A stretch of 64,000 nt of DNA from Acidobacteriota bacterium (GTDB taxonomy: Bacteria; Acidobacteriota; Terriglobia; Acidiferrales; UBA7541): the NCBI GenBank assembly GCA_003223215.1, contig QHYH01000082.1, positions 62,001 to 126,000 of the forward strand, in the 5' to 3' direction. Both the position numbers and the translations under genes were made by a program. The notes beneath the pieces are model-generated. The model was not told the DNA's origin and searched no databases. It saw nothing but the letters and a program-made list of their open reading frames with translations. Positions 34,790 to 42,185 of the stretch are shown in pieces. The stretch's first letter is position 1; every line of letters starts with the position of its first letter.

Positions 34790-36220
34790 CTATTTCGGCT
34801 CGGCGATCTCCGGCTTCGGGTAAGCCTTCGCTAAGGCCGTTTGATATTCGCCAAAAAGCCCCTGGATGCGCGTGAACTCGGTCTTCACCGCGTCACGCAG
34901 TTCGGAATGCGTGGCATAGTCATAGAGGATCGCCGCCATCGTCCCCGCATCGATCAAAAAGCCTTCGTGGCCGACATCCTTGAGCGCGTCCGCCTCCATG
35001 CCGTAGGTGTGATTCGAGAAATTCGAGGACTTCGCCGACACGCCGATGCCGGGGATCTGGCTCGATACGCTGCCGGTCTCCTCGAAGCCTTTGGGCTTGC
35101 CGGGCTCCGGCTCTCCGCCGGTCGCGCCCAATTGCTTCATATAGGCCAAGGACAGTTCCTCGAGGCTCGAAAGTGAGATGCCATCGCGATCCTTTCCGTA
35201 ATGATCGATTTTCACTTTTGTTCCGGTGGCCAGAGCAGCCGCGCGCGCCGCATCGTCCACCCACTCGGAGACTTGTTCCAGGTATACTCCGTCGGGATAG
35301 CGAATATAAAAATCCGCCGAAGTCTGGTCCGGCACGACATTCGGCGCCGCGCCACCCTCCGTGATCACACCTTGAATCCGAGCTTCAGGCCGAATGTTGC
35401 TGCGCACGCTGTCAATATTGTTGAAGAGCTTGATCACCGCCTCCAAGGCGTTTCGGCCGTTCCATGCCGTCAGTTGGTGTGCCGGTGCTCCATAGAAGGT
35501 GTACTTCACGCCGTCAATATTCATGCAGCACGTGCCGAAGCCTGCGGCGGACCTGGAGGTTACGGCTGAGGAATGGCTGCGCACAATCATATCCGCCTTA
35601 AAAACGCCTGCTTCCATCATGACGGTTTTGGCTTCCGGCGGCATCATCTCTTCGCCAGGACAGCCGTACACGGTGACCGTTCCGGGAGTGTGCGTGCGCG
35701 TGAGGAACTCCGCGATGGCTACGGCGGCAGCCATCCCCACGGGACCTTGCGCGCTGTGCTGGTCGCCGTGAAATGCGCCCTTGGTACCCCGCAGGGCGTC
35801 GTATTCCAGAATGACGCCGAGGTTCGGGCCGGGAGTGCCTCGCTTGTATTTAGCGACGAAGGCGGTCGAGAGTCCGGCCACGGGCATGGTCAGTTCAAAA
35901 TCATGCGCTTCGAGATACGCCGTGAGTTTTCTGACCGCCTGGGTCTCTTGAAAGCCGATCTCGGGATGCTCGGTAATCCAGTCGCTCATGGGCAGAAGCT
36001 CGGAGTGCATCAACTGCTTCACGCGCGCGAGGACCTCCTCCCGCCCCTTGTCCGGCGCGGAGAGCTTTGCCACCATCGCCGGAACGCCGAGCGATTGGCT
36101 TAGGCCAGCGATTTGCTTGACCACATCGCGGGCTGCTTCGCGTTCCGTTGGGGTTTCCTGCGCAACGCAAGGCCCGGCCAAAACCAGGGCAATCAATACA
36201 CCGGCAGACTTCTTCTGCAT
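34790..36220 (-). CDS. Secreted M20-family amidohydrolase (AbgB-like)
   Basis: The 476-residue protein has a signal peptide (VLIALVLAGPCVAQETP). It resembles the amidohydrolase branch of peptidase family M20: SDWITEHPEIGFQE, GPNLGVILEYDALRG, HGDQHSAQGPVGMAAAVAIAEFL, GCPGEEMMPPEAKTVM, then the dimerisation domain with YGAPAHQLTAWNGRNALEAV. AbgB-type enzymes cleave N-acyl amino acids such as p-aminobenzoyl-glutamate. The usual Cys-Gly-His-Asp motif reads HGDQH here, so metal binding may differ. The ATG at 36220 has GGAGGT upstream. It follows the GlcG-type gene by 38 bases. Confidence 0.88.
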   Translation of the reverse strand: MQKKSAGVLIALVLAGPCVAQETPTEREAARDVVKQIAGLSQSLGVPAMVAKLSAPDKGREEVLARVKQLMHSELLPMSDWITEHPEIGFQETQAVRKLTAYLEAHDFELTMPVAGLSTAFVAKYKRGTPGPNLGVILEYDALRGTKGAFHGDQHSAQGPVGMAAAVAIAEFLTRTHTPGTVTVYGCPGEEMMPPEAKTVMMEAGVFKADMIVRSHSSAVTSRSAAGFGTCCMNIDGVKYTFYGAPAHQLTAWNGRNALEAVIKLFNNIDSVRSNIRPEARIQGVITEGGAAPNVVPDQTSADFYIRYPDGVYLEQVSEWVDDAARAAALATGTKVKIDHYGKDRDGISLSSLEELSLAYMKQLGATGGEPEPGKPKGFEETGSVSSQIPGIGVSAKSSNFSNHTYGMEADALKDVGHEGFLIDAGTMAAILYDYATHSELRDAVKTEFTRIQGLFGEYQTALAKAYPKPEIAEPK

Positions 36221-36258
36221 GAGACTACCTCCGCATGGCAAGCGATGCGCGACGCCAC

Positions 36259-36759
36259 TTACTTTATGGCGTCGGCGCCGGCCTTGGCGCACTGGCCGTC
36301 CTGCGCGCTCGAGCCGCCTGAAACCCCGATGGCACCGACAATCTTTCCTTCGATGACCAGCGGAATGCCACCTTCGACCGGCACGGCGCCCTGAATTTTG
36401 AGAAGGCGCAGGCCCTCGCCGCCTGCCGCAAGCGTGTCCTGAAACACTTTGGTAGGCCGCTTGAACAAAGCCGCGGAGCGGGCCTTATCAATCGCTACCT
36501 TGGCGCTGCCGAGTTGCGTATCGTCCATCTTCTCGTAATAAACGAGATTGCCCGAAGGATCGACAACGGCCACGGCCATGTTCCAGTGGTTTTTCACCGC
36601 CTCGGCAAGCGCCGGTGCAGCAGCTTTTTTGGCATTTTCAAGGCTGATTGGTGCGCCATAGGGCGCTGGCGCTTGCGCGTTAAGCATCTGCGCGGTGGCC
36701 AGCAGGCTCGCGAGCGACATTCCGCCGATGGCCGATTTCACTGCGGTCTTTTTCGACAT
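36259..36759 (-). CDS. GlcG/HbpS-family protein (DUF336) with signal peptide
   Basis: The 166-residue protein has a signal segment (GGMSLASLLATAQMLNAQA) and a GlcG/HbpS domain: NAKKAAAPALAEAVKNHWNMAVAVVDPSGNLVYYEKMDD, KVAIDKARSAALFKRPT and VPVEGGIPLVIEGKIVGAIGVSGGSSAQD. Relatives bind haem or cobalamin, or are of unknown role. It lies upstream of the M20 amidohydrolase gene, with a spacing that suggests one operon. Confidence 0.88.
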   Translation of the reverse strand: MSKKTAVKSAIGGMSLASLLATAQMLNAQAPAPYGAPISLENAKKAAAPALAEAVKNHWNMAVAVVDPSGNLVYYEKMDDTQLGSAKVAIDKARSAALFKRPTKVFQDTLAAGGEGLRLLKIQGAVPVEGGIPLVIEGKIVGAIGVSGGSSAQDGQCAKAGADAIK

Positions 36760-37181
36760 GGGTGTTCCTCCTCGGTTTGGATGGCGATGGCGTTCTCGAA
36801 GGGTGGCAAGTTAGACCATGGAGGCTCTCTTCTGCAATTCTTTTTGTGCGCCACGCGGTGAGGCGTGACCCTCCTTCCTGGTAAGAGCACAGGCTAGCGG
36901 GAGGAACGACCGAGGGCCCAGAGGTCGAGAGACTCTCGCCCGCCTATCTCTTTGCAATGATCCAGAAGGACTTAAGGGAACCCTCAAGTCGACGGGGAGG
37001 GAGGTAGGACCGAGCCGAGCGTCTCAATCGCTCCCATACCTTTAGGGAAAGGAAAGGAGTTTGCTGGTCACCGGTCGGCGGAACTGGCTGGACTTTGCGA
37101 GGCCGGTGGGCCAGACTTGCCCGGGAAACGCGGCTATCCCTGTTGCGAAGGGAGAACGCGAGGCGCCGCCAGAGGCACAGC
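36760..37181. other. Intergenic region before the pilT-like gene
   Basis: The 422 bases are divergent promoter space between the GlcG-type gene and the pilT-like gene. The right part is rich in short inverted GC motifs. I looked for a cyclic-di-GMP riboswitch pattern and did not find one. No gene is seen. Confidence 0.45.
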
Positions 37182-38342
37182 ATGGAGAATCCGGAAGAAC
37201 TGAATCAGCTGGCAGAGGAACTGAGTGCGGGCGGCGGCGACGGCGCTCGGGACTCGGCGGCGACGGCGAGGCTGGACCAGTGGCTGAAGATGCTGGTGGA
37301 GCAAGGCGGAAGCGACCTTTTACTGGTCGAGAACGCGCCTCCCTGCGCGCGAGTCGAAGGCGAAGTCCGCAAATTGGAGCCGGCATCTTTGGATGGGGCC
37401 GAGATCGAGGCGGCGCTACTGCCCGCGCTCTCGCAGCACGCATTACGGCTGTACCGGCAAGCGCTGATCGCCGACTCTTCCTATCGGATAGAGGGCTTGG
37501 GACGCTTCCGAATTAACCTTCATCGCGAACGCGGGCGGGCAGCGGCGGCGATCCGCGCCCTGCCCGCGAAGGTACCGGCGCTCGCGGAGCTGCACCTGCC
37601 GCCGACCGTCTCGAACCTTGCACATTTGCCGCGCGGACTGGTGCTGATCGGCGGCCCGGCAGGCTCAGGCAAGTCCACTACTCTTTCCGCGCTCATCCAT
37701 GAAATCAATCTGCGGGAGGCGCGGCACATCGTAACCATCGAAGATCCCATCGAGTACGAGCACCTGCACCTGCGGAGCGTAATTGAACAGGTGGAGATCG
37801 GCACCGATGCTCCGGATTTCCCGACGGCTCTGCGCGCCGCGCTGCGGCAGGCGCCGGATGTCATCGTTGTGGGGGAGATGCGGGATGCGGAAACCATGCG
37901 CATCGCCGTGGTGGCCGCGGAAACGGGCCATCTGGTTTTCTCGACGCTGCACACCACCGATGTGGCATCGACGGTCGCGCGGATTAGCGATTCCTTCCCG
38001 GTGGAACGGCAAAACGCCATCCGGCAGGAACTGGCGATGGCGCTTGCCGCCGTGCTGACTCAAATTTTGCTGCCGACGAAAAACGGCGGGCGCATGCCCG
38101 CGGCGGAGCTCCTGATGGTGGGATACGGAGCGCGGCATCACATCCGCAAAAACAATTTGCAGTACCTCCACCAGGAGATACCGCTCTCGAAAAAACGCGG
38201 CTCGTTCGCCCTGGAGGAATCTTTGGTGACGCTCATCCGCAAAGGGGACATCGAACGCGAAGACGCTCAGCTTTGCGCGATTCATCCCGACGATTTGAAT
38301 ATCCTTCTGAAATCCTCCGCAACCTACCGCATGGAGCCGTAG
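37182..38342 (+). CDS. PilT-like twitching motility ATPase
   Basis: The 386-residue hexameric ATPase family member has an N-terminal PAS-like part (about residues 1-110), then Walker A LIGGPAGSGKSTTLSALI. Next come the Asp box (VTIEDPIEYEHLHLRSVIEQVEIG), Walker B DVIVVGEMRDAETM and the His box TGHLVFSTLHTTDVASTV. PilT/PilU proteins power retraction of type IV pili. The C-terminus lacks a typical long extension, and the usual AIRNLIRE motif is changed (HHIRKNNLQYLHQEI). The ATG at 37182 begins MENPEELNQL. No other pilus genes lie nearby. Confidence 0.85.
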   Translation: MENPEELNQLAEELSAGGGDGARDSAATARLDQWLKMLVEQGGSDLLLVENAPPCARVEGEVRKLEPASLDGAEIEAALLPALSQHALRLYRQALIADSSYRIEGLGRFRINLHRERGRAAAAIRALPAKVPALAELHLPPTVSNLAHLPRGLVLIGGPAGSGKSTTLSALIHEINLREARHIVTIEDPIEYEHLHLRSVIEQVEIGTDAPDFPTALRAALRQAPDVIVVGEMRDAETMRIAVVAAETGHLVFSTLHTTDVASTVARISDSFPVERQNAIRQELAMALAAVLTQILLPTKNGGRMPAAELLMVGYGARHHIRKNNLQYLHQEIPLSKKRGSFALEESLVTLIRKGDIEREDAQLCAIHPDDLNILLKSSATYRMEP

Positions 38343-38348
38343 AAGCCC

Positions 38349-38364
38349 CGTGCCTTCGGGCACG
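38349..38364 (+). terminator. UUCG hairpin after the pilT-like gene
   Basis: CGTGCC-TTCG-GGCACG is a 6-bp stem with a TTCG tetraloop, six bases after the stop codon; CCC and GGG extend it with one extra base. There is no T-tract after it, so it may protect the 3' end rather than terminate. Confidence 0.4.
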
Positions 38365-38383
38365 AGGGATATAGAGGGATCTG

Positions 38384-38411
38384 GCTAAAAGGGGCTGAAA
38401 GGGCTAAAAAG
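38384..38411 (+). repeat. Short tandem repeat GGCTRAAAGG
   Basis: Three near-copies, GGCTAAAAGG, GGCTGAAAGG and GCTAAAAAG, lie about 50-70 bases upstream of the leader ORF. They could be regulator contact sites or a chance AG-rich repeat. Confidence 0.4.
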
Positions 38412-38454
38412 AAACCTTTTCTTCGGGCAAAAGACGTGATAGAGTCTAGACGTG

Positions 38455-38553
38455 ATGATGACCATCGCCACGAAGCGAATTAAGTCTATGTCGACTACCT
38501 CGACTAAGACTAACAAGACTATTTCCGCTTCGGGCGACGGGAGAAACAGCTAG
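38455..38553 (+). CDS. Leader peptide of the aspartokinase attenuator
   Basis: An ATG-ATG start opens a 32-codon frame ending with TAG at 38551-38553; an in-frame GTG at 38452 is possible with AGAG seven bases before it. The peptide starts MMTIATKRIKSMSTTSTKTN. It has seven Thr, four Lys, three Ile and three Met in 32 residues, and 15 of residues 3-23 are Thr, Lys, Ile or Met. These are the end products of the aspartate pathway, and the next genes encode aspartokinase and aspartate-semialdehyde dehydrogenase. The layout is like E. coli thrL. The last codons (Ala-Ser-Gly-Asp-Gly) overlap the antiterminator segment. Confidence 0.82.
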   Translation: MMTIATKRIKSMSTTSTKTNKTISASGDGRNS

Positions 38554-38615
38554 CAAGCTAAAAAAAGTTTCCAACCCACCGCCGGAAGCGAACCGGGCGG
38601 TGGGTTTCTTCTTTT
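38462..38615 (+). promoter_or_regulatory. Four-segment ribosome-mediated attenuator before lysC
   Basis: Segment 1 (38462-38476, core TCGCCACGAAGC) can pair with segment 2 (38527-38541, GCTTCGGGCGACGGG) over 11 bp with one bulged A. Segment 2 can instead pair with segment 3 (38575-38589, CCCACCGCCGGAAGC) in 12 of 15 positions. Segment 3 overlaps the left arm of the terminator (38573-38583 with 38596-38606). Pairing 2:3 therefore excludes the terminator, and 1:2 allows it. A ribosome held on the Thr/Lys/Ile codons should favour 2:3 and read-through; one reaching the stop codon at 38551 should cover segment 2 and allow termination. Pairings were found by eye; energies are not calculated. Confidence 0.75.
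38573..38615 (+). terminator. Intrinsic terminator in the lysC leader
   Basis: AACCCACCGCC (38573-38583) and GGCGGTGGGTT (38596-38606) form a perfect 11-bp stem with a 12-base loop, followed by TCTTCTTTT. It lies 64 bases before the aspartokinase start and 20 bases after the leader stop codon, so it is placed to stop transcription before the gene. Confidence 0.88.
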
Positions 38616-38679
38616 AAGCCCCCCCCCCGAGAGACGCTCCCGCCGCCGGACTTGAGAATGGAAACCAGGAGCGCAGGAC

Positions 38680-39720
38680 ATGAATCGGGAACATGGATTG
38701 GAAGAGGCCTCGGAACCTAGCCCCGCCGCGCACCAAAGCGAAGACCTTTGCTGCGGCGGGGTCGATAAGCGCAACAAGGTCGTAGCGTTCAAGTTTGGTG
38801 GAAGCTCGCTGCTCGGGGCCGAGCGCATGCTCCACGCGGCGAGGCTCGTGCGGCAAGCGGCAAAGGTATCGAAGGTAGCGGTAGTGGTTTCCGCCATGAA
38901 AGGCGTGACCGACCACCTGCTATCGATTGAAAAGGCGCTGCTTGCCGGCAAGCTCGTCCACGCGCGACGGGAAGCGGAAGTTGCCCTGGGCTTGCATCTG
39001 GAGGTGCTCGAGGATTTGCGGCTTGACGAAGAAACGGATCGCCGCATGCGCCACGAACTCGAACTGCTCGGCCACGACCTGCTGCACGAAGTTCTCAGTT
39101 GGAAGGATGGTGCGGCCAGCGGCGAGTCTTCTGACCGCTTGGCATCCTTTGGGGAACGGTTGAGCGCCCGGCTCTTCGCCGCCGCGCTGCAACAGCTCGG
39201 CCTCGCCGCGGTGCCGGTGACTTCATCGGAATTTGTGCTCACCTGCGACACTTTTCGCCATGCGCAACCGCACCTCCAACAAAGCAGACAGCGCGGGCGC
39301 AAAATTCTCCTCCCACTGTTGGAGGAACGGGCCGTGCCGGTCGTTACTGGGTTCATCGGGGCCACCCCCGACGGGCGCATCACGACGCTGGGCCGCAACA
39401 GCTCGGATTTTTCCGGCGCCATTGTCGCCTACGTGTTGGAGGCCGATGAGCTGGTGATCTGGACCGACGTAGACGGCATTTACACAGCGAATCCGCAGGA
39501 ATCGGCGGAAGCTCAGCTTCTCCATGAATTGAGCTATGACGAAGCACACGCGCTGGCCCGCGGGGGCGCAAAAGTGCTGCACCCCAAAGTGCTGCCGCTG
39601 GCCGCGGAAAGCGAAATGGTGGTGTGGGTGCGCAATACCTTCAATCCGCAGGCACGCGGCACACGGATTGGGCCGCCCGGCGACCTTTCCGACGCGCTTC
39701 TGTCGGGAGGTGCGGCATGA
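38680..39720 (+). CDS. lysC: Aspartokinase, catalytic domain only
   Basis: Aspartokinase makes aspartyl phosphate, the first step to Lys, Thr, Met and Ile. The 346-residue protein contains AFKFGGSSLLGAERM, VVVSAMKGVTDHLL, GERLSARLFAAALQQ, GFIGATPDGRITTLGRNSSDFSGAIVAYVLEA and WTDVDGIYTANPQ. It ends shortly after AKVLHPKVLPLAAES and NTFNPQARGTRIG. In E. coli LysC or ThrA, ACT regulatory domains follow that point; none are present here. The GRNSSDFSG motif is more ThrA-like. The N-terminus has about 34 extra residues with two Cys. It is preceded by the attenuator and overlaps asd by ATGA. Confidence 0.92.
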   Translation: MNREHGLEEASEPSPAAHQSEDLCCGGVDKRNKVVAFKFGGSSLLGAERMLHAARLVRQAAKVSKVAVVVSAMKGVTDHLLSIEKALLAGKLVHARREAEVALGLHLEVLEDLRLDEETDRRMRHELELLGHDLLHEVLSWKDGAASGESSDRLASFGERLSARLFAAALQQLGLAAVPVTSSEFVLTCDTFRHAQPHLQQSRQRGRKILLPLLEERAVPVVTGFIGATPDGRITTLGRNSSDFSGAIVAYVLEADELVIWTDVDGIYTANPQESAEAQLLHELSYDEAHALARGGAKVLHPKVLPLAAESEMVVWVRNTFNPQARGTRIGPPGDLSDALLSGGAA

Positions 39721-40895
39721 ACCCGCAAGCTCGGGACGGGAGGAATGGCCAAACGCCGCGAAGCGAGCAAGAAAACCAGCGGGTCAAGAACATGGGAAGA
39801 AAATGGCACGCCGGAGTTCTCGGTGCGACCGGCATCGTCGGGCAACGACTGGTGAAGCTGCTCGCCGAACACCCGTGGTTCGAACTGACGGAGGTTGCCG
39901 CTTCGGAACGATCGTCGGGAAGGACGTACTCCGAAGCCGTTCGCTGGCACCTCGAGACACCCATTCCCGAAGCAGCGCGCCACCTGGTTGTAAAAGGGGT
40001 CGCGCCGACACTCGATTGCGATTTTGTTTTTTCCGCGCTGGACTCGTCCGTCGCCGGGCCGGTCGAGGAAGATTTTGCGCGCGCGGGCTACCCGGTCGTC
40101 AGCAATTCGAGAAACCACCGCATGGATGTGGATGTGCCTCTGCTGATTCCCGAAGTGAATGCAGCGCATCTCGCCGCGATCCCCGTGCAACAGAAGAGCC
40201 GCGGTTACGACACCGGCTTTATCGTGACGAACCCGAATTGCTCGACCGCAGGTCTCGTGCTGGTGCTCAAGCCGCTGGCGGACGCGTTTGGCCTCGAGCG
40301 AATTTTTGTGGTCACGCTGCAAGCCATTTCCGGCGCAGGATATCCCGGGGTCGCATCGATGGATATTCAGGGCAATGTGGTGCCGTTCATCAGCGGCGAA
40401 GAGGAAAAGATGGAATCGGAACCGCAAAAGTTGCTGGGCAAGTGGGACGGCACGAGGTTTGTCGAGGCGGGACTGGGCATCAGCGCGCACTGCAATCGCG
40501 TGCCGGTGCTGGATGGTCACCTGGAATGCGTGTCCTTGGGACTAAAAAAAATCGCGTCTTTGGCGGAGGTTCGCGAAGCGCTGCGGACGTTTGAAGTGGA
40601 CCACGAGTTAGCTGCATTGCCGACGGCGTTGCGCCATCCGGTGATTGTGATGGATGAAGAAAACCGCCCGCAGCCCCGGCGCGACGTGGAAGCGGGTGAA
40701 GGAATGGCGGCGGTGGTCGGGCGCATCCGCGAATGCCCGCTTCACGACGTGAAGCTCACGCTGCTCTCACACAATCTTCTCCGCGGCGCCGCAGGCGCGG
40801 CGCTGTTGAACGCGGAATTGCTCGCCGCCCGCGGATTCATCAAGGACCGCTCGCCAAGAAGGGCGGTGAAACTCGCAGAGCCGGCGGCCCGTTAG
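39717..40895 (+). CDS. asd: Aspartate-semialdehyde dehydrogenase
   Basis: Asd reduces aspartyl phosphate to aspartate semialdehyde with NADPH. The 392-residue sequence has the nucleotide fold AGVLGATGIVGQRLVKLL, the catalytic Cys in TNPNCSTAGLVLVLKPL, and ISGAGYPGVASMDIQGNVVPFI and GISAHCNRVPVLDGHLE. These features place it in the archaeal/fungal-type subgroup rather than the E. coli type. The ATG overlaps the aspartokinase stop (ATGA) and has GGGAGG six bases upstream; a later ATG at 39792 would begin nearer the fold. Translation is probably coupled to lysC, so the attenuator controls both. Confidence 0.93.
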   Translation: MNPQARDGRNGQTPRSEQENQRVKNMGRKWHAGVLGATGIVGQRLVKLLAEHPWFELTEVAASERSSGRTYSEAVRWHLETPIPEAARHLVVKGVAPTLDCDFVFSALDSSVAGPVEEDFARAGYPVVSNSRNHRMDVDVPLLIPEVNAAHLAAIPVQQKSRGYDTGFIVTNPNCSTAGLVLVLKPLADAFGLERIFVVTLQAISGAGYPGVASMDIQGNVVPFISGEEEKMESEPQKLLGKWDGTRFVEAGLGISAHCNRVPVLDGHLECVSLGLKKIASLAEVREALRTFEVDHELAALPTALRHPVIVMDEENRPQPRRDVEAGEGMAAVVGRIRECPLHDVKLTLLSHNLLRGAAGAALLNAELLAARGFIKDRSPRRAVKLAEPAAR

Positions 40896-40970
40896 CGCAA
40901 TCGTCGACGCTCCGGCCGAATCGTTCACCGTCTCCGTTTGCTAGCGGGAGTTTCCTCGCACTAGACACAA

Positions 40971-41002
40971 AAAGGGCGGCGCAGCGAGCCGCGCCGCCCT
41001 TT
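40971..41002. terminator. Bidirectional intrinsic terminator between asd and csp
   Basis: AAAGGGCGGCGC and GCGCCGCCCTTT form a perfect 12-bp stem with an 8-base loop. On the minus strand the stem is followed by TTTTTGTGT, so it should end the cold-shock gene. On the plus strand it lies 75 bases after asd and may also serve that operon. Confidence 0.85.
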
Positions 41003-41023
41003 GTTCTTGCTTGTGATGCGAAA

Positions 41024-41230
41024 TTAGAGGGGCTGTACGTTCGTGGCCTGGAGACCCTTGGGGCCCTTGGTCACTTCGAATTCAACCGCTTGGCCATCGT
41101 TCAGTGTCTTGTAGCCATCAGCCACAATGGCGGAGAAGTGGACGAAAACGTCCTCGCCGCTCTGGCGCTGGATGAACCCAAAGCCCTTGCTGGCATTGAA
41201 CCACTTCACGGTACCCTGTTCTTTATTCAC
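41024..41230 (-). CDS. Cold-shock protein (CspA family)
   Basis: This 68-residue cold-shock domain protein has [16 protein letters not shown] (RNP-1 region), DVFVHFSAI (RNP-2) and the usual ending. Such proteins bind single-stranded RNA or DNA and melt secondary structure. It uses a GTG start. A 7-bp hairpin, TCAGCCG/CGGCTGA (41249-41267), lies 19 bases upstream, and an intrinsic terminator lies further upstream (41368-41397), suggesting a structured leader or the end of the TetR-type transcript. It ends at the terminator shared with asd. Confidence 0.95.
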
Positions 41231-41552
41231 TGCTTTTACTCGTTTCTGTCAGCCGGGTTACGGCTGAGCACTACTTTAAGCTATCTGATGCCCCAAGTCC
41301 CGCGCCCCTCACAGAGCCACGGCCGTCTTCAAGCTTGTCCGGTGGGCCGCAAAGCGGTCTACCGCACAAAAAAAAGCCGCAAGTGTGACCTTGCGACCGC
41401 TTTCTTACCCAAAGGCGATACAAGAGCAACAAACGCAAAAAAATAGTAACACGGACTAAGGTAAACTACCAATAGTTTCTTTTCTCTTGACTTTGCTCTT
41501 GCACATCACGCCACTTCGAGGGGAGCAGCCGCCCGCGTAGTCCGCAAAATTC
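41231..41552. other. Upstream/leader region of the cold-shock gene
   Basis: These 322 bases between csp and the TetR-type gene hold a hairpin at 41249-41267, an intrinsic terminator at 41368-41397 on the minus strand, and a wider inverted repeat AAAGCGGTC/GACCGCTTT (41351-41359, 41395-41403). No protein gene is seen. Confidence 0.55.
41368..41397 (-). terminator. Intrinsic terminator upstream of csp
   Basis: On the minus strand GTCGCAAG and CTTGCGGC pair over 8 bp (one G-T) with a 6-base loop and are followed directly by eight T. It is 155 bases after the TetR-type stop and 138 bases before the csp start, so it may end the TetR-type transcript or act within a csp leader. Confidence 0.75.
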
Positions 41553-42185
41553 TCAGGAGAGTTTCCTCCTTCTCTGGTTTTTGGATCGCGACTTTTTGAC
41601 AGATCGCCGATAGGGACCGAGGAGCGCTTCGAGGTCGCGACGGAGCCAAGCAGCGAGCGAACCTTCGCGGAAGACGGCCCAATGGAGCATGGAGCCGCCA
41701 TTGACCTGCTGGACGAGCCGGGCAAGCTCGGCCGTGTCGCAGCTCACTAATTCGCGGACGGCGACGGCTTCATCGAGAAGCTTGCGAGTCTCCGATTGAA
41801 GCGCCCTGAACTGCGCGAGCGTGATGGCTCGAAACTCCGGATCGGTCAAGTCGTTCTGTAGGTAGGCCAGGCCGTTGGCCAGGGACTGGGGCGTCGAAGC
41901 AAAGTCGCTGCAGGCCACATAGAGTTCGACCAGGGTCTTGAGCGGCGACTGGTATTTTGCCCGCGCGGCGGCGAATTGCTGCGGGACGCTCGCAGGAGCG
42001 GTGCTCGACACTGCCAACAACAAGCCACGTTTTGTGCCGAAGCGCTGGATCAGCGTGGCGGGGACGACCCCCGCTTCCCGCGCCACATGAGCCAGCGTGA
42101 GCTGCGTCGGGCCGTAGCGTTGCATGGCGCGCGCCGCCGCAGCCACAATTTCTTCATCCGAGGTTTCGCGAGGACGGGGCGACAT
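41553..42185 (-). CDS. TetR-family transcriptional regulator
   Basis: The protein is about 210 residues from the ATG at 42185. A TetR helix-turn-helix is seen: EIVAAAARAMQRYGPTQLTLAHVAREAGVVPATLIQRFGTKRGLLLAV, split over helices 1-4. A C-terminal dimerisation domain follows, and the tail is basic (KKSRSKNQRRRKLS). It is divergent from an SDR gene, and repeated TGACCGTTTATT-type sites lie between them, so it likely represses the SDR gene. A GTG further upstream at 42269 would put the start inside the operator. Confidence 0.85.
   Translation of the reverse strand: MSPRPRETSDEEIVAAAARAMQRYGPTQLTLAHVAREAGVVPATLIQRFGTKRGLLLAVSSTAPASVPQQFAAARAKYQSPLKTLVELYVACSDFASTPQSLANGLAYLQNDLTDPEFRAITLAQFRALQSETRKLLDEAVAVRELVSCDTAELARLVQQVNGGSMLHWAVFREGSLAAWLRRDLEALLGPYRRSVKKSRSKNQRRRKLS

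Follow-up and report, generated by a model that had tools for sequence, protein, structure and literature searches.

What controls the aspartokinase and aspartate-semialdehyde dehydrogenase genes of this acidobacterium, and which amino acid does that control sense? The window analysed here is a 64,000-nucleotide stretch of contig QHYH01000082.1 (assembly GCA_003223215.1, an Acidobacteriota bacterium whose genome comprises 8.8 Mb in 279 contigs). In it, lysC (38680–39720) and asd (39717–40895), which open the route to threonine and lysine, are preceded on the same + strand by a short open reading frame (ORF) and an intrinsic terminator. An initial annotation, made from the sequence alone, had read this region as an attenuator of lysC-asd that senses several amino acids. 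The element is real at the coordinates given below and very probably attenuates the transcription of lysC-asd in response to threonine, with the ribosome as mediator. This reading builds on features that were directly observed or computed: a conserved ORF, its conserved Thr codons, three mutually exclusive helices obtained by folding, a promoter motif and the gene context. The leader-peptide attenuator and its three exclusive hairpins were thus retained from the initial annotation, whereas the sensing of several amino acids was not, as only Thr is constant. Absent from the initial annotation were the probable leaderless start, the aspartokinase without an ACT domain, the scaffold shared with Cys leaders, and the larger antiterminator and segment 1.

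The leader element

The predicted leader peptide ORF runs from the ATG at 38455 to the TAG at 38551–38553 and encodes 32 residues, MMTIATKRIKSMSTTSTKTNKTISASGDGRNS, with alternative starts at GTG 38452 and ATG 38458. Its 7 Thr, 4 Lys, 3 Ile and 3 Met agree with the counts first given for it, from which the 6 Ser had been omitted. The main Thr codon block spans 38494–38520, with Thr codons at 38494, 38497, 38503, 38509 and 38518. Segment 1 (about 38462–38482) lies upstream of this block and segment 2 (38526–38547) downstream of it. They are followed by segment 3 with its 5′ extension GUUUC (38567–38590), which is the antiterminator partner and at the same time provides the left arm of the terminator hairpin (38573–38606). 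The T-rich tract of the terminator (38605–38615) is read from the sequence and is mostly kept in the alignment of relatives.

Folded alone, the terminator hairpin reaches −23.9 kcal/mol with 11 stem pairs and 1 isolated pair, which bears out the 11-bp stem described before; its z score against shuffled sequences is −2.5, and 4 of 200 shuffles were equally good. The leader region as a whole (38440–38625) folds at −65.2 compared with −46.0 ± 4.2 for 200 dinucleotide shuffles (z −4.6), none of which was as good. The two pairings initially proposed for 38527–38541 were also recovered by eye, one with 38575–38589 at 12 of 15 positions and the other with 38465–38476 through 11 pairs and one bulge. 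In addition, the antiterminator holds a GAAAC/GUUUC helix (38543–38547 with 38567–38571) that flanks the stop codon.

Conservation in relatives

The same arrangement is found in all 20 of the closest lysC loci (L003–L022, 60–82% identity), as the alignment suggested in the initial annotation now shows: each has a Thr-rich leader ORF with SG or FG near its end, followed by a terminator, and the antiterminator is likewise kept. Leaders were read in these 20; the 60 further loci of the lysC search are distant aspartokinases (at most 42% identity), of which L077 and L079 come from other Acidobacteriota. Among named records, metagenome genomes of Acidobacteria gp2 and Candidatus Acidiferrum are the nearest. 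One record titled Betaproteobacteria (L015) holds the same lysC locus as the acidobacterial genomes and is possibly a mislabelled genome.

A search model, R1, built from 19 Thr elements gave a strong match (E 3.6e-11 or better) in 34 of 36 genomes of the genus. The other two are G202 (63% complete), with no R1 match, and G209 (77% complete), with only a weak match to a Cys element. Together, 31 deduplicated elements and two read by eye (L100 and L150) make 33 distinct Thr elements in the genus, the leader of G207 being left out. The leader ORF is open in 33/33, and in the other two frames of the codon block 8 and 24 stops occur. Outside the genus, R1 matched 43 of the 180 sampled class genomes. 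Of these out-of-genus loci, 18 were read, in 16 genomes: a short ORF with three or more Cys is present in 16, and two lack runs of Cys or Thr; the sole ORF with 5 Thr also carries CCC.

Alternative RNA structures

When the parts are folded apart, the 1:2, 2:3 and 3:4 hairpins each form in 21/21 elements, and in the same 21 the antiterminator and the intrinsic terminator before lysC are mutually exclusive. Segment 2 is defined by folding, by the ribosome simulation described here and by changes on both sides of its helices, and the terminator by folding, by RNAalifold and by the motif survey of the genus genomes. RNAalifold recovers the terminator together with the GAAAC/GUUUC helix, with 2 of 22 pairs changed on both sides.

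In the simulation, a ribosome was placed on each codon of an RNA ending at segment 3, that is, before arm 4 exists. With the ribosome at Thr codons, the 2:3 helix has a mean probability of 0.80 and reaches at least 0.8 at 200 of 273 positions; with the ribosome at the stop codon it falls to 0.00. The last codon that still allows 2:3 at 0.8 or above lies 11–13 codons before the stop in 27/31 elements. The initial annotation had left open which stalling point would mask segment 1, and this doubt is largely met: in the model, segment 2 stays available to segment 3 for almost every ribosome position as far as roughly 12 codons ahead of the stop.

Promoter motif and probable leaderless start

An extended −10 promoter motif, TGATAGAGT, lies at 38437–38445 and predicts a transcription start at or adjoining the leader start codon. 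Across the genus, TGNTANNNT ends 6–10 nt upstream of the chosen leader start in 33/33 elements, compared with a background of 79 in 32237 spans of 17 nt. As the start, the most upstream in-frame one was chosen; seven lengths and the anchors of L100 and L150 were set manually, and further in-frame starts follow at distances of up to 13 nt. A consensus sigma-70 scan of 36000–42000 found no promoter, and the extended −10 motif emerged only from the comparison of relatives. Because this motif sits just before the leader start, the leader mRNA is probably leaderless. The gene after the leader has an AGGAG Shine-Dalgarno sequence in 30/31 elements.

A similar arrangement is known for trpL of Sinorhizobium meliloti, where, according to the part of PMC7298713 drawn on here, the leader mRNA likewise starts with the ATG of the leader ORF and the choice between terminator and antiterminator likewise depends on the ribosome. 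That system differs in its Trp codons, its 14-residue leader and its place in the Alphaproteobacteria.

The sensed amino acid and competing explanations

In the codon block, defined as the stretch between segments 1 and 2, Thr accounts for 211 of 519 in-frame codons (40.7%) over the 33 leaders, while 8.1% would be expected from base composition; Lys makes up 11% and Ile 8%. Another Thr codon lies within segment 1 in 21/33 leaders (alignment column 7). Several Thr columns mix ACC, ACT and ACG, which argues for selection on the amino acid. In the pairing segments, codons are often fixed (Ala GCT 33/33, Asn AAC 32/32, Arg AGA 29/30), which argues for selection on the RNA. Every block holds 4–10 Thr, compared with 0–4 Lys, 0–5 Ile and 0–3 Met. 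Since only Thr is constant across the leaders, the codon composition points to threonine alone as the sensed amino acid.

The same counts make it improbable that Thr, Lys, Ile and Met are sensed jointly, and on these per-leader numbers we rejected that explanation. It does draw on the appreciable share of Ile (9.8%), Lys (8.4%) and Met (6.8%) among all codons of 31 leaders and on the fact that lysC-asd supplies all four amino acids. However, the Lys, Arg and Ile codons that vary least (KRI) sit in segment 1 and are near-fixed (AAG 31/31, CGA 30/32, ATT 25/27), as pairing would require. That the hairpin is the ordinary terminator of the pilT-like gene, which ends upstream on the same strand at 38342, and the ORF a product of chance, is scarcely credible: ORF, promoter motif and pairing are all kept across relatives, and in L022 the upstream ORF differs, as judged by sequence only. 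Conservation thus led us to reject this explanation as well. A partly translational control, in which pairing hides the lysC Shine-Dalgarno sequence, is also unlikely. This sequence is paired at 4 or more of its 5 bases in 29/30 minimum-energy folds, a count made without shuffle control, but its partners vary between elements and are often not the complementary CGCTCC, whose complementarity is interrupted by one mismatch in L016 and L020, as judged by eye. Moreover, it lies past the terminator, away from the leader ribosome.

Proposed mechanism

From these features we infer ribosome stalling, read-through and a response to Thr. RNA polymerase would start at or beside the leader start codon, as the −10 motif suggests, and the ribosome would load directly on the 5′ end. 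With ample Thr-tRNA, the ribosome would reach the UAG and cover segment 2, so that the 3:4 terminator could form and transcription would end near 38610. With scarce Thr-tRNA, it would stall in the Thr block, 2:3 would form before segment 4 is made, and lysC-asd would be transcribed. If the leader is not translated, segment 1 may pair with the emerging segment 2 and restore termination, which is the least certain step.

Comparison across 31 elements, with wrong starts used for L010 and L021, gave unequal results for the helices. The 1:2 helix is stronger than in synonymous recodings (mean z −2.14; 19/31 elements at or below 15 of 300), and pairing between its cognate segments exceeds that between permuted ones (P 0.0002). 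For 2:3 the mean z is −1.84. Several observations, including the wrong starts just mentioned, weigh against the proposed mechanism. The 2:3 helix shows no cognate effect (P 0.60), as its arms hardly vary, and only 10/31 elements pass the recoding cut. Changes on both sides were counted at 6 columns in 1:2 and 3 in 2:3 (30 elements, L151 being dropped for want of an anchor), counts that lean towards pairing because partners were chosen by energy. In the simulation, four elements including that of the window stay just under 0.8 (unrounded) for 2:3 at every codon. In the truncated RNA, 2:3 is favoured on average even if no ribosome is present (mean 0.74; 0.8 or more in 19/31 elements, 0.2 or less in 3), which speaks against a simple role of 1:2. 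When the complete RNA is folded to equilibrium with a ribosome on Thr codons, the terminator has a mean probability of 0.75 and exceeds 0.8 at 187/273 positions. Such equilibrium folding did not tell stalled and unstalled states apart in the way the model requires, whereas folding of the truncated RNA did so except for the ribosome-free state. As the terminator dominates at equilibrium, the switch must be kinetic. Ser makes up 26% of the block codons, which Thr sensing does not explain; some Thr columns are near-fixed (e.g., ACT 30/31 in column 36), and one Ser column in segment 2 varies in its third base (TCG/TCC/TCT). Finally, the lysC of G189 has one in-frame stop, and most of the relatives are metagenome-assembled genomes.

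The self-complementarity of the block (UCGAC/GUCGA) explains the Ser codons only in part; compared with synonymous recodings, its folding is slightly better (mean z −0.83, with negative values in 29/33). The RNA folding proposed in the initial annotation has a mixed outcome: the leader folds better than shuffles and yields three hairpins, but the ribosome-free state is ambiguous in the simulation, and the role of 1:2 is the least certain step of the modelled mechanism.

An aspartokinase without an ACT domain

The product of lysC matches only the amino-acid kinase domain. A domain search revealed no ACT domain in this protein or in the copies of the relatives tested (L003, L016, L022), while the second aspartokinase of the genome (518 residues, L002) has ACT domains. 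Among 200 sampled class genomes, the short kinase (at least 57% identity, E 2.1e-108 or better) is present in 19 of the 20 from the same genus, including the source genome; the best match in the other 180 has E 1.0e-61. The asd gene, whose start is predicted, overlaps lysC by ATGA, and it follows lysC in 19/19 readable relatives, L020 running off its contig. In G146:C46 (L130), a Thr leader stands directly before asd, and the short lysC was not found in that genome. Since the controlled aspartokinase lacks the ACT domain, transcriptional regulation by Thr may take the place of feedback inhibition, which would point to a way for cells to manage with an aspartokinase devoid of allosteric domains.

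Between the terminator and lysC, CGCTCC (38635–38640) is complementary to GGAGCG around the Shine-Dalgarno sequence AGGAG (38667–38671). A CGCTCC complementary to this region is present in most relatives, and the span 38635–38671 is a weak candidate for a second control layer.

A scaffold possibly shared with Cys leaders

Within the genus, the 12 weak R1 matches that were read are other leader-peptide candidates, 10 of them Cys-rich and 2 aromatic. A second model, R2, built from 12 Cys elements, finds the Thr element as its best match in each of the 18 sources given (of 21), with E from 1.8e-8 to 1.7e-4, and matches the window element at 38523–38616 (E 6.2e-7). At E 0.001 or better, and with Thr elements included, R2 matches 34/36 genus genomes and 54/200 class genomes. 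The 18 out-of-genus R2 loci read, some at sites shared with R1, all have a short ORF with at least 3 Cys.

The terminator motif CCCACCGCC-N(4-20)-GGTGGGTTT gave 66 matches at 62 sites in the 36 genus genomes, as 4 of the 66 are the other strand of the same palindrome; the reversed pattern gave none in these genomes. Five of the genomes have no match, and their Thr elements differ in the motif. Of the 62 sites, 26 belong to Thr leaders and 35 have an ORF with at least 3 Cys; one (G215:C15) was left unassigned. Because the ORF with most Cys was chosen at each site, single Cys leaders are less certain than the set. TANNNT lies 5–10 nt before a start of the Cys ORF in 20/35, with a background of 157 in 5415 starts; this background counts per start, and as ORFs have several starts, the chance per ORF is higher. 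Thr leaders and 26/35 Cys leaders alike have SGxxR-like codons at their ends. The window leader has no Cys codons, and Thr leaders have 0–2 each.

In the source genome, Cys leaders lie at G000:C79:54658-54773 (L156), G000:C4:5502-5616 (L224) and G000:C109:32232-32347 (L225). Downstream of Cys leaders lie, among others, cysD and an SsuA-like transporter gene, both above NCBIfam cut-offs, as well as a rhodanese-domain gene and nitrite/sulfite-reductase-domain genes, assigned by Pfam and below NCBIfam cut-offs. Cys-rich leader attenuators, which appear to act on sulfur genes, precede cysD, a rhodanese-domain gene and an outer-membrane beta-barrel gene; in class relatives, Cys leaders stand before nitrite/sulfite-reductase-domain and sulfonate-transport genes.

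Cys leaders are spread over several families of the class, whereas Thr leaders were seen in a single genus; the Thr element would accordingly derive from a Cys one, as a Cys-type scaffold with swapped sensing codons; the sequences from which we infer this descent are short and constrained by pairing. We give about an even chance to the fuller history, in which one probably leaderless scaffold with exchangeable codons existed in an older, class-wide Cys version at several sulfur loci per genome, and in one genus a copy arrived in front of lysC-asd and exchanged its Cys for Thr codons, giving an aspartokinase without feedback domains a new control by Thr. That the likeness instead arose by convergence or gene conversion is a possibility of somewhat lower standing. 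Terminators that resemble each other impose a resemblance on the leader ends, as segment 2 has to match the terminator arm; a stretch of about 100 nt is too short to support a tree; and among the 34 genus genomes with a Thr element, R2 lists it in only 25 (E 0.001 or better). However, the terminator motif looks attenuator-specific, with a Thr or Cys leader at 61/62 sites and the reversed pattern absent, and the first rank of the Thr element under R2 and the SGxxR-like ends common to both leader types likewise speak against it.

Specificity switching by a changed specifier codon occurs in T-boxes, and a codon-swapped scaffold, if true, would be the leader-peptide counterpart. Natural sets of Thr and Cys leaders on apparently one scaffold would also help to separate the generic parts of an attenuator from those that set the amino acid, and to show how sensing specificity evolves. 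Single Cys codons occur within the Thr leaders L098, L099, L153, L017 and L100 (e.g., MCTTTASGDG, TICASGEW) and are possible relics of a Cys ancestor. In G181, a mixed IMCTTMKCMC leader (L169) precedes a frame that appears to resemble the reductase-domain gene of L239.

Relation to known attenuators

The enterobacterial thr operon attenuator thrL (Rfam Thr_leader) controls a fused kinase-homoserine dehydrogenase. There, too, the leader peptide is rich in Thr, the antiterminator segment is encoded at its end, and an intrinsic terminator separates it from an aspartokinase gene. In contrast, the element described here precedes lysC-asd with its ACT-less kinase and is probably leaderless, and no sequence relation between the two is evident. 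Rfam at gathering score matched no family over the window, hence neither Thr_leader nor a T-box or lysine riboswitch; with E up to 10, only sR15 and ncrMT1302 appeared in 38400–38680, far below gathering. The identities as a riboswitch, T-box or thr leader were rejected for lack of an Rfam match. We rate the element as classical in its logic and as new in its phylum, its gene, its probable leaderless start and its shared scaffold.

Among the matches listed in a literature search that left most subscription journals outside and was not aimed at aromatic leaders, there was no earlier report of an acidobacterial Thr or Cys leader attenuator; Lopatovskaya et al. 2010, reportedly a comparative survey of attenuation, may hold a prior prediction. 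Leader peptides of Actinobacteria and mycobacteria, in the part of a 2005 survey drawn on here (PMC1262725), likewise have Cys codon runs before sulfur genes, as in the acidobacterial Cys elements. In those of Mycobacterium the survey found no conserved terminator hairpin, whereas the acidobacterial Cys elements have one, common to the Thr element. The same part of the survey gives no conserved RNA structures for threonine operons in Actinobacteria. The His leaders of Bacillus hisS/hisZ, as covered by the part of a 2010 survey drawn on here (PMC2965389), are likewise leader-peptide attenuators outside Proteobacteria and Actinobacteria, but differ in their His codons and in belonging to Firmicutes. 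According to that part, almost no attenuators predicted in Acidobacteria have associated functions, and it is to this phylum that the present element would bring leader-peptide amino-acid attenuation. Leader genes close to structural genes have been noted in Acidobacteria among other phyla in the covered parts of PMC4833913, which do not name a Thr or Cys attenuator.

An aromatic leader before DAHP synthase

Elsewhere in the source genome, a Trp/Tyr/Phe-rich leader, VGSMNTQHANWYCWYRFTWHPSGWRRAVP, given here from a provisional start, lies upstream of a DAHP synthase gene (G000:C139:27566-28600, L297). The aromatic leader is followed by a terminator, CCCACTCG..GAGTGGG, before the DAHP synthase gene. 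A short ORF with at least 4 aromatic residues is present in 27/30 DAHP loci (L273–L302), two of these 27 (L276 and L291) looking doubtful; the count was made without a chance control.
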